From Nitrospirota bacterium (GTDB taxonomy: Bacteria; Nitrospirota; Thermodesulfovibrionia; Thermodesulfovibrionales; Dissulfurispiraceae): a stretch of DNA of 39,491 nucleotides. The translations under genes and the position numbers were made by a program. The notes below the pieces were generated by a model. That model ran no database searches. It was not told where the DNA came from and saw only the letters and a list, made by a program, of their open reading frames with translations. The DNA lies in contig JBFMHE010000028.1 in NCBI GenBank assembly GCA_040752355.1, positions 1 to 39,491 on the forward strand. Reading direction: 5' to 3'. Of the stretch, positions 26,791 through 34,981 are shown piece by piece; within the stretch, counting starts at the first letter, position 1; the number at the start of each line of letters is the position of its first letter.

Positions 26791-28064
26791 GCCCAGCCCG
26801 GGCTGGTGGCCCTGAGCCCCCGGGGAGTGACACGGACAGCGCCCTCCCCGTTTGCCCTCATGAGGTAAACGCCCTTCGATCCGTCCCTGTCGGACATGAA
26901 CGCAAGATAGCGTCCATCGGGGGAGAAGGATGGGTCCTCGTTGTTTCCTTCATGGGTGAGCTGCTGCAGGCCCGAACCGTCCGGCTTTACGATGAAGATA
27001 TGGTTCCTGCCTCCCGCACGGCCGACAAAGGCGATGCGGTCTCCCTTGGGCGACCAGACCGGCGAGGTATTGTATGTCCCTTCGAAGGAGACCCTCCTTA
27101 CCCCGTACCCGTCCTGGTCGGCAACATAGATGTGAGGGTTGCCTGCGCGGTTCGAGACGAAGGCGATCGATCTCCCGTCACCCGACACCGACGGCGATAC
27201 ATCGATCCAGGGGGAGGATATGATCTTTCGTTCACCTCCGGTGCTGCTATCGGCGACATAGATATCCGGGTTGCCGTCCTTCGAGGAGGTATAGACAAAG
27301 TCCCTGCTGTTCGGGAAGAAGTTCCCGGCCATGGCGAGGCTTTTCGGGAGGGCAATGCCCCGCTCTTTCATGGAGCTCATGTCGAGGAGGAATATCCCCC
27401 ACTGCCGATGCCGCTCCGCGGAATAGAGCAATTTGGCGCCGTCAGGCGACCAGCGCGGGCCGAGGAGAATACCTCCTGTTATCCCGAGCCCGTGAGCACG
27501 GTGGCCATCCCAATCCATCACATAGAGCTCTCTCTTCCCCCCTTTCTCGCCGACAAAGGCGATCCTCGTCCGGAACACTCCCTGCTGGCCGGTGATCAGC
27601 GTGTAGAGGTCGTTGGCGATCGAGTGGGCGAGAGGCCGGAGAAGGTCCGGAGCGGCAGAGTACTCTTTATTGAGGACCTGCCCTCCTGCGGCGACATCAT
27701 AGGCTGCGACAACGACGCTCACCTTTCGGGGGGAGACCAGGGAGACCCTTCCCTTGACCACGAGCTCGGCGCCGATCCCTCTCCAGTTTACGGGATTGAA
27801 GGGCTGATCGGCCTTCTCGATATGAGCGGCCTCATCGATGCAGCTGAAGAGACCGGTAAAGGTGAGATCGTCCTTGACGATGTCCGATATGTCCTTATTG
27901 CCGGTGAAGCTCTGTACGGCAACAGGCAGTCTGCTGAGCCCGGGCGAGGTGATATCGATATATACTTTGGCAAAAGCAGGAGTCAGAGCCAAGAGCATAG
28001 AGCACAGAGCATAGAAAACAAAAAAGGCTAAGAGTTTGCCAACTCTGTTCCGAAGGTTCCTCAT
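26781..28064 (-). CDS. tolB: Tol-Pal system periplasmic protein TolB
   Basis: TolB is a periplasmic beta-propeller that links Pal with the TolQRA motor and supports outer-membrane constriction. The 427-residue product has a signal peptide (basic MRNLRNRVGK, hydrophobic core, PAFA cleavage site before K33), the N-terminal TolB domain, then about five WD/PD40 repeats (RWSPDGAKLLYSA, SFSPDGRYLAFMSD). Residues 16-29 of the signal peptide are encoded by six contiguous heptad units. ATG 28064 is preferred; ATG 28088 falls in a dispersed repeat. It follows tolA after a 179-bp repeat-filled gap. No pal is in the window. Confidence 0.92.
   Translation of the reverse strand: MRNLRNRVGKLLAFFVFYALCSMLLALTPAFAKVYIDITSPGLSRLPVAVQSFTGNKDISDIVKDDLTFTGLFSCIDEAAHIEKADQPFNPVNWRGIGAELVVKGRVSLVSPRKVSVVVAAYDVAAGGQVLNKEYSAAPDLLRPLAHSIANDLYTLITGQQGVFRTRIAFVGEKGGKRELYVMDWDGHRAHGLGITGGILLGPRWSPDGAKLLYSAERHRQWGIFLLDMSSMKERGIALPKSLAMAGNFFPNSRDFVYTSSKDGNPDIYVADSSTGGERKIISSPWIDVSPSVSGDGRSIAFVSNRAGNPHIYVADQDGYGVRRVSFEGTYNTSPVWSPKGDRIAFVGRAGGRNHIFIVKPDGSGLQQLTHEGNNEDPSFSPDGRYLAFMSDRDGSKGVYLMRANGEGAVRVTPRGLRATSPGWAPL
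27978..28019. repeat. Heptad array E (AGAGCAT type) inside tolB
   Basis: Six units in a row on the plus strand: AGGAGTC, AGAGCCA, AGAGCAT, AGAGCAC, AGAGCAT, AGAAAAC. The array lies entirely within the coding sequence for the TolB signal peptide, codons 16-29. The 42 bases equal 14 codons, so the frame is kept. Confidence 0.85.
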
Positions 28065-28083: not shown

Positions 28084-28173
28084 GTCATTCCGGCTTGTCC
28101 GGAATCGTTCTTTCTGAAAGGACTCCCGACGCACGGGGCCTGTCCCGGCCTGTCCGGGGGGTGCGGGAATGAC
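28084..28173. repeat. Inverted-repeat (MITE-like) element between tolA and tolB
   Basis: Terminal arms GTCATTCC (28084-28091) and GGAATGAC (28166-28173) flank 90 bp rich in CCGG and TGTCCGG words (two TGTCCGG copies). GTCATTCCGG-type repeats are widespread dispersed elements. It carries no open frame of note. Confidence 0.65.
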
Positions 28174-28200
28174 ACCCCTCTTATGCTCCTCTTTGTAAGT

Positions 28201-28228
28201 GGTGGCTGTTGGCTGACGGCTGACGGCT
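28201..28228. repeat. Heptad array F (GACGGCT type)
   Basis: Units GGTGGCT, GTTGGCT, GACGGCT, GACGGCT, just downstream of tolA on the minus strand. A different word from arrays A, D, E, but the same strict 7-base period. Confidence 0.8.
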
Positions 28229-28243
28229 TCTTTATGCTGTTGT

Positions 28244-28969
28244 TCATGGTCTGAATCTCACTCCCATCTCGATATCCCTGGGCGGGGGCGGCAGGGGGCT
28301 CGCGTTCGCGATCGCCCTCATGACCGACCGGTCGAAGAGCGGGCTTCCCGAGCTCTTCTCGATCCGGTCGATGGTGACGTTTCCGTCCTTTGCGATCTTG
28401 ATCGAGATGATCGCCTCGAGGTCCCGGTCGATCGTCTCGGGGAATACCCACTGCTGCCTGATCCTGCTCTCGACGAGGGAGTAGTAATCCCCTCCGCCGG
28501 CTGGTCCGCTGCCGGCGCCCGGGGCGTTCCCCTTGGGCCCGGGATTGGCGGGTCTCGTCTGGGGAGTCTTCTGCGCGGCGCCGACGGTAACCACTTTTCT
28601 GAGCGACGCCAGCTGTTCGAGCCTCTTCTTCGCCCGCAGCGCATCGATGCGGTCGTTCACGAGGTGGTCCTCTTCTTTCTTTACTGTCTTCTTCGTCTCC
28701 CGGGGCAGGGTCATCGCAGGCTTCGCAGCAGGAGGCTCGACAGCCCTTGTCTCCCGCTCCTCGGCCTTAACCGGTTCTTTTACGCCACTGCCGGTCGAAG
28801 GGGAAGGCATTGTGCTGTCAACGAGGGAGACAACGTACGGCGAAGGCAGCCGCATGGTGGCGGTCCCTTTTGCTATGAGCAGGGCGACAATGACGGCAAG
28901 AAGGTGGAGGAGGAGAGAGTACGTTACGGCAGCGGAGATGCTCGAATCTTTCAGGCGTGAGGCGATCAT
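28244..28969 (-). CDS. tolA: TolA / TonB C-terminal-domain protein
   Basis: A 241-residue energy-transducing protein of the Tol-Pal system. It has one N-terminal membrane helix (~14-34), a charged proline- and lysine-rich linker (~55-160) and a C-terminal TonB/TolA-like domain (VESRIRQQWVFPETID ... SVMRAIANASPLPPPP). Short compared with E. coli TolA, as in many non-enteric bacteria. The start overlaps the tolR stop by four bases. Placement between tolR and tolB supports TolA over a TonB for import. Confidence 0.85.
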   Translation of the reverse strand: MIASRLKDSSISAAVTYSLLLHLLAVIVALLIAKGTATMRLPSPYVVSLVDSTMPSPSTGSGVKEPVKAEERETRAVEPPAAKPAMTLPRETKKTVKKEEDHLVNDRIDALRAKKRLEQLASLRKVVTVGAAQKTPQTRPANPGPKGNAPGAGSGPAGGGDYYSLVESRIRQQWVFPETIDRDLEAIISIKIAKDGNVTIDRIEKSSGSPLFDRSVMRAIANASPLPPPPRDIEMGVRFRP

Positions 28970-34460: not shown

Positions 34461-34488
34461 CGTAACGCGTAACGCGTAACGCGTGACC
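34461..34488. repeat. Heptad array H (CGTAACG type)
   Basis: CGTAACG three times exactly, then CGTGACC. Decayed units (CGTAATG, CACAACG) can be followed to about 34523. It lies between hisF and the four-helix-bundle gene. Confidence 0.88.
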
Positions 34489-34532: not shown

Positions 34533-34898
34533 TCATTTTTCTTTCTCCTTCAAAAACTTGCTCAACCCGACAAGCATCTTTCTTATTGCTTCAATATCAT
34601 TGAATACAGGGTGATCGTCAAGATAGTTAAATCTTCTCGAGAGCAGCAATTGGGTCTCTATTTCCGAAAGTGAGCCCATCGCTATGGAAAGAAATTGTAA
34701 AAACTCTTTATTAGATGTTCTCGCCGCGCCTTCAGCTATATTACTCGGGACCGAGACTGCTGAACGTCTGAGTTGTGAAACAATCCCGTACTGCTCATTT
34801 TTCGGGAAATCCGCAGTTAATTGATATGTTTTTTCTGCAAGCTCCATAGCTTTATTCCAGACGTCCAAATCTTTATGCGTTTTTGTCTTATTTGTCAC
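34533..34898 (-). CDS. Four-helix-bundle protein, S23/IVP family
   Basis: A 121-residue all-helical protein of the S23 family (TIGR02436), first known as genes inside 23S rRNA intervening sequences and related to the Avd protein of diversity-generating retroelements. Family features seen: KDLDVWNKAMELAEKTYQLT, QLRRSAVSVPSNIAEGAAR and SLSEIETQLLLS. Function is not established. GTG start at 34896-34898 falls in a degenerate heptad unit; no Shine-Dalgarno is visible. Base composition is clearly more AT-rich than the flanking his genes. Heptad arrays bracket it on both sides and it splits hisA from hisF, which points to insertion. Confidence 0.88.
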   Translation of the reverse strand: MTNKTKTHKDLDVWNKAMELAEKTYQLTADFPKNEQYGIVSQLRRSAVSVPSNIAEGAARTSNKEFLQFLSIAMGSLSEIETQLLLSRRFNYLDDHPVFNDIEAIRKMLVGLSKFLKEKEK

Positions 34899-34927
34899 TG
34901 ATTACGCGTTACTCGTTACGCATCACG
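34893..34927. repeat. Heptad array I (CGTAACG type)
   Basis: Plus-strand units TGTCACT, GATTACG, CGTTACT, CGTTACG, CATCACG, followed by GCCTTTAT. The first unit contains the start codon of the four-helix-bundle gene. Confidence 0.85.
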
Positions 34928-34953
34928 GCCTTTATTTCCTGCTTTTTTCTTTT

Positions 34954-34981
34954 TATCACTGATCACGCGTTACGCGTTACG
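34954..34981. repeat. Heptad array J (CGTAACG type) at the hisA 3' end
   Basis: Plus-strand units TATCACT, GATCACG, CGTTACG, CGTTACG, followed by GCCTTTAT as in array I. It encodes the last residues of HisA (VTRNA) and its TGA stop (34963-34965). Confidence 0.85.

Follow-up and report, generated by a model that had tools for sequence, protein, structure and literature searches.

Heptad repeat DNA in the leader of tolB encodes the predicted signal-peptide core in a Nitrospirota genome and often in its relatives

How does the start of a gene for a cell-envelope protein, tolB, come to be written in tandem 7-base units? The question is raised by an array on the minus strand of the window, the whole stretch of 39,491 nucleotides analysed here, which is contig C28 of a 3.57-Mb genome with Nitrospirota (Thermodesulfovibrionales-type) metagenome genomes as relatives. 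On this strand the gene order is tolQ, tolR, a tolA/tonB-like gene and tolB (Table 1). The original prediction described six contiguous units, read from 28019 to 27978 as GTTTTCT, ATGCTCT, GTGCTCT, ATGCTCT, TGGCTCT and GACTCCT, which match the consensus GTGCTCT at 5, 6, 7, 6, 5 and 3 of 7 positions, respectively. Tandem Repeats Finder (TRF) returned 3.4 copies at 27992–28015, and lag-7 scoring delimited the interval given in Table 1, which holds ATGCTCT, GTGCTCT, ATGCTCT and TGGCTCT. The unit matches and the two extents support these four units firmly and the outer two only marginally; the array is real, yet shorter than first claimed, and six units is an overstatement. Given a tolB start at ATG 28064, the coordinates of the 42-bp stretch, its length of 14 codons and its peptide, VFYALCSMLLALTP, are right. 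Its assignment to codons 16–29 also holds for that start, but the numbering is uncertain, as the start is probably upstream.

Table 1 Positions in the window of tolB, its neighbour, the IVP-family gene and the associated repeats
Feature	Position	Strand	Evidence
Heptad array, about four units RTGCTCT, TolB hydrophobic core	27985–28015 (originally 27978–28019)	−	TRF, lag-7 scoring, shuffles
tolB, originally predicted start to stop, 427 aa	26781–28064	−	TIGR02800 above cut-off, PF04052
Putative in-frame upstream extension of tolB, 61 further open codons	28065–28247	−	ATG 28247, analogy with relatives
Palindrome-ended stretch GTCATTCC...GGAATGAC in the tolB extension	28084–28173	−	Sequence
Second heptad array, GCCGTCA type, in the tolB extension	28200–28228	−	TRF, lag-7 scoring
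tolA/tonB-like gene immediately upstream of tolB	28244–28969	−	TIGR02794 and TIGR01352 above cut-off
23S_rRNA_IVP (PF05635) four-helix-bundle gene	34533–34898	−	Between inverted heptad arrays
Heptad array CGTAACG, one side of the IVP-family gene	34461–34487	.	Lag-7 scoring
Heptad arrays TTACGCG (34902–34921) and ACGCGTT (34965–34981)	34902–34981	.	TRF and others

The repeat resides in the DNA and is not imposed by the peptide, because only 3 of 100,000 sequences recoded synonymously for the unchanged protein scored at or above the observed lag-7 value. Codon-order shuffles reached the observed score in 2 of 100,000 cases, and dinucleotide shuffles gave p of about 0.001. Among 85 tolB leaders surveyed from across the class, with a lag-7 score of at least 9 counted as an array, 41 contained one (34 at a score of at least 12), against 0–4 leaders at each of the other lags (4–6, 8–13 and 15–18; lag 14, being twice 7, is excepted). 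Hydrophobic cores are typically pyrimidine-rich at second codon positions, which speaks for chance, or for protein-level constraint on a low-complexity core, as the source of the array; against the recodings and the lag comparison, this explanation has almost no prospect of being right. Chance and codon bias were rejected on the same results.

A unit of seven bases leaves a remainder of one when divided by three, so that successive units are read in each of the three frames in turn and the array gives one cyclic heptapeptide whatever frame it lands in. Computed translations were identical in all frames (TGCTCTA gives CSMLYAL and TTCACTA gives FTIHYSL), which bears out the predicted rotating frame that remains hydrophobic throughout; relatives show that such an array recurs in this slot. 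Orientation is strongly biased. Pyrimidines predominate on the coding strand of all 38 of 38 core arrays, which are therefore stop-free and hydrophobic wherever they are placed before a cleavage site, and arrays in the n-region are purine-rich in 14 of 22 cases, with peptides rich in K, R, S and Q. The window array lies immediately 5′ of the predicted AFA/K cleavage site, in a leader with the basic n-region, hydrophobic core and A-x-A motif (AFA/K) before the mature domain that define Sec signal peptides; the TolB_N domain follows from residue 35 (numbered from ATG 28064). Maximum 12-residue hydropathy is 2.34 in this leader and at least 1.98 in every array leader. From the conserved position, the hydrophobicity and the A-x-A motif, we infer that the array-encoded core acts as the TolB signal peptide.

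Some leaders also fold. Strong hairpins (z < −2) were found in 10 of 41 leaders with an array, where the two arms or sequence around them form the fold, versus 3 of 44 without, most clearly in five relatives (L106, L016, L090, L096 and L073), in which one inverted pair writes both the n-region and the h-region. A hairpin in the window's own tolB leader is not supported (z 0.04).

The leader in the window is probably longer than originally predicted. The tolB start codon of nearly every relative is an ATG or GTG overlapping the stop of the upstream tolA/tonB-like gene, and in the window ATG 28247 overlaps that stop (ATGA, 28247–28244) in frame with tolB. By this analogy ATG 28247 is probably the real start, which makes a leader of 93 codons likely; starts at 28088 or 28064 are possible alternatives, with no clear ribosome-binding site at either. 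The 93-codon leader would hold, in frame, the second heptad array, the palindrome-ended stretch and the core array. The palindrome-ended stretch was rejected as a well-copied family, as only fragments of its ends occur elsewhere in the genome.

Across relatives, the position of the array is conserved while its unit turns over. Within the order, seven families (f1, f4, f5, f9, f11, f12 and f13) have array-bearing leaders, and the small number of tolB leaders examined from f6, f7, f8 and a different order had none. The units include TGCTCTN (in the window and in two genera of another family), TTCACTN (the commonest in several families), TTCTGTN, GTTACTC, CTACTGT, TTACTGC and CTTCTGC; genus-mates often have the same unit, and genus g4 has both TTCACTA and TTCTGTG. 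On a tree limited to 27 TolBs of one family, most of the sequence pieces comprising the 5′ end only, array presence changes at least five times. Relatives carry unrelated units or none, and leaders with an array are longer (median 40 aa versus 30 aa, p = 2e-5), so the finding named beforehand as fatal to the prediction, the same peptide encoded by unrelated sequence of constant length, did not emerge. Steps of 7 or 21 bp, which had also been anticipated, were not cleanly seen in same-genus leader pairs compared by eye. Half of the leaders lack an array, which is therefore dispensable. Most of the genomes are metagenome assemblies, and many independent assemblies agree. Together, the leader sequences point to an order-wide Nitrospirota pattern in which heptads frequently make up the start of the predicted TolB export signal, the unit differing by genus. 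In a separate observation, two leaders from different genera (L007 and L014) are near-identical, with the n-region QQNGLNSSNGLNGSNRCLLHCC and a second short repeat, NGLNSSNGLN.

Within the window's genome, the unit has no other copy at up to one mismatch in 3.57 Mb and one further match at two mismatches, as does a reversed control pattern; a dispersed TGCTCTN family was rejected there, the unit being seen at tolB only. This absence elsewhere speaks for growth in situ and against a recent copy from a dispersed family. Of 176 genomes of the order, 47 contain TGCTCTN triplets, and the reversed control has almost no matches. Heptad arrays of any unit number 21 in 839 kb of the window's genome, both genic and intergenic. 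Genome-wide statements rest on these 839 kb, on 400 kb of the complete genome G009 and on about 399 kb from six others. About two thirds of the arrays in the 400 kb of G009 lie inside genes predicted with a simple in-house caller, among them what we take, from conserved motifs, to be leuS, hisF, tgt, lpxB and aroA.

The tolB leader is accordingly a favoured slot but one among several, and the choice of query favours it. In the window's genome, carB (L191, C1:341945–342292) contains two heptad-pair insertions, the second of which adds 31 residues in frame between residues that are adjacent (549/550) in Escherichia coli CarB; the hairpin test was strong for one carB element and not significant for the other. 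This carB slot holds different heptad arrays in other genera (G006, G014, G024, G026 and G030) and elsewhere a PPLLKGG-type repeat instead of heptads. Peptides of the PPSPPFSKGG/PPLLKGG type, encoded by a palindromic DNA repeat, occur in two tolB leaders (L109 and L134) and four carB slots (L192, L195, L203 and L218), so that heptad arrays share their slots with a second type of repeat. A SurA-like leader of the window's genome (L254, C1:379003–379581) is an inverted heptad hairpin (z = −5.1) that encodes both n- and h-regions; the start of this gene overlaps the end of a BamA-like gene. Arrays are present in 5 of 24 BamA-like and 6 of 26 SurA-like leaders of the same family and in about 1–2% of other signal-like genes in the sampled genome stretches (tolB removed by hand), rates that rest on genes chosen in different ways, as tolB was the starting point and the SurA-like query was taken from an array-bearing gene. 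Just 3′ of tolB in one relative, the leader of a gene for what is possibly a CpoB/YbgF-like protein (L171, G106:C55:14122–15196) consists of paired heptad arrays (score 43). The proposal that a repeat became the export signal thus stands in so far as intergenic-type repeat DNA encodes the TolB core and recurs in relatives, but tolB is not its unique slot.

A further setting of the arrays is suggested by the IVP-family gene of the window, where the arrays on one side are the inverted complement of the array on the other. Of 59 IVP genes in two families (L282–L341), 39 lie no more than 260 bp from an array on one side or the other, and 23 have arrays on both sides, compared with 0 of 963 other genes in the sampled stretches; 22 of the 23 flanking pairs are inverted, one is a tie and none is direct. 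The window's IVP flanks and the two arms of the hairpin in the SurA-like leader have the canonical unit AACGCGT in common; the unit at the genome's other IVP locus is that of a large intergenic array at C1:166327. The shared units and inverted flanks suggest, without proving, that heptad hairpins are the ends of elements, of which gene-free versions landed in leaders. We tentatively extend this to a mobile or self-propagating family, full members of which would carry a 23S_rRNA_IVP gene between inverted arrays and gene-free hairpins of which would insert in frame, preferably in signal leaders, the purine arm giving the n-region and the pyrimidine arm the core; this extension may well prove wrong.

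The most probable account, and one that we regard as likely, is that the tolB leader is a tolerant slot in which heptad repeat DNA entered or expanded and now serves as the signal-peptide core. An array landing before the cleavage site in pyrimidine-rich orientation would yield the hydrophobic core and a purine-rich arm the basic n-region, and an inverted pair of arms, as in several relatives, would allow one heptad hairpin to encode both. Selection would retain only in-frame, correctly oriented arrays and leave the unit sequence free to turn over, so that genera would come to differ in their unit. Heptad hairpin elements would accumulate in tolerant slots, the tolB leader being a favoured one. 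We infer that the arrays arrived as hairpin elements related to those bracketing IVP genes, by a putative mobility mechanism, and did not grow by local slippage alone.

The most probable of the rivals is local slippage. Arrays extended locally wherever they are tolerated, whether by slipping of the polymerase or by template switching, in leaders of low constraint and with no mobile element, would suit a unit found nowhere else in its genome; heptamers are over-represented in many bacteria, with slippage of the polymerase as a proposed origin (PMC4692102). The pairing of arrays as inverted repeats and the recurrence of unit families across genera, with reversed controls near zero, tell against it, and the exact 31-residue CarB insertion better fits the arrival of an element; slippage alone is a possible but doubtful explanation. 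Somewhat less probable is a single array in the ancestral tolB leader of the order, inherited vertically with drifting units and lost in some lineages. The constancy of position and of the ATGA overlap start, the frequent likeness of genus-mates in presence and unit and the prevalence of TTCACTN in several families agree with such descent, but the state changes within one family, the switch of unit within genus g4, close relatives with unrelated n-region arrays and the lack of arrays in the family's basal-looking genera do not. Short tandem repeats near N-termini are the classic arrangement of phase variation, and a change by a single 7-bp unit, in either direction, would put the gene out of frame and switch TolB off. 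A contingency locus of this kind is nevertheless very improbable here, as the window's units are imperfect, the frame is open in nearly all 85 leaders and TolB is of the essential type.

On the reading of the leader as a tolerant slot, selfish-looking repeat DNA seems to have been put to use again and again as a functional piece of a cell-envelope protein. Repeat DNA would here have turned into a targeting signal on many occasions, an idea open to direct test, and a simple reason why it could do so is that a 7-base unit reads alike in every frame. The inverted arrays around IVP-family genes supply a candidate element for the origin of the unexplained heptamer arrays of many bacteria. Annotation should also recognise that the predicted proteins of such genomes include insertions derived from repeats.

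Several known systems resemble the one described here. Intervening sequences of 23S rRNA encode IVP/S23 proteins, with a four-helix-bundle gene between complementary, stem-forming ends. The window's IVP gene also lies between complementary ends able to form a stem, but its ends consist of heptad arrays, and the gene with its flanks is surrounded by protein genes. A search of open-access papers found no report of IVP genes with heptad flanks, of heptanucleotide repeats in Nitrospirae, or of heptad arrays as signal-peptide cores or inverted IVP brackets. As period-7 head-to-tail repeats beyond chance, enriched over other periods, the arrays resemble tandem heptamers of the SSR/STRR type; those of the window's genome are dispersed and intergenic as well, the tolB unit itself not being dispersed there. 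Abundant, dispersed heptamer arrays are a feature that they share with cyanobacterial short tandemly repeated sequences and with the GGGAATC and GGGGA(C/T)T heptamers of Xanthomonas and Nostoc (PMC4692102), which, unlike the arrays here, are G-rich, quadruplex-forming and under-represented on the coding strands of ORFs. The TAACTGA heptamers of Beggiatoaceae, Cyanobacteria and Bacteroidetes are likewise tandem and intergenic, with some in the ends of ORFs, where the three frames give a repeating heptapeptide (MacGregor 2015, PMC4679880). They consist, however, of a single unit, mostly just 5′ of start codons, in a paper that does not mention signal peptides or TolB (PMC4679880), and the arrays described here, whose units differ, are not members of that family. 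The arrays also resemble the Rickettsia palindromic elements, repeat DNA that lies in frame in unrelated coding genes and is tolerated as extra peptide (review, PMC10969869). In-frame insertion into conserved genes is common to both, as in the split of CarB at 549/550, a slot whose contents turn over between genera. Palindromic (hairpin) structure is mixed in the present arrays: it is strong in one carB element and the SurA-like leader, is present in 10 of 41 relatives' leaders, is not significant in the second carB element and is absent from the window's tolB leader. The Rickettsia elements are sequence families of about 150 bp, whereas here heptad arrays of many sequences, often in inverted pairs, form the signal-peptide core.
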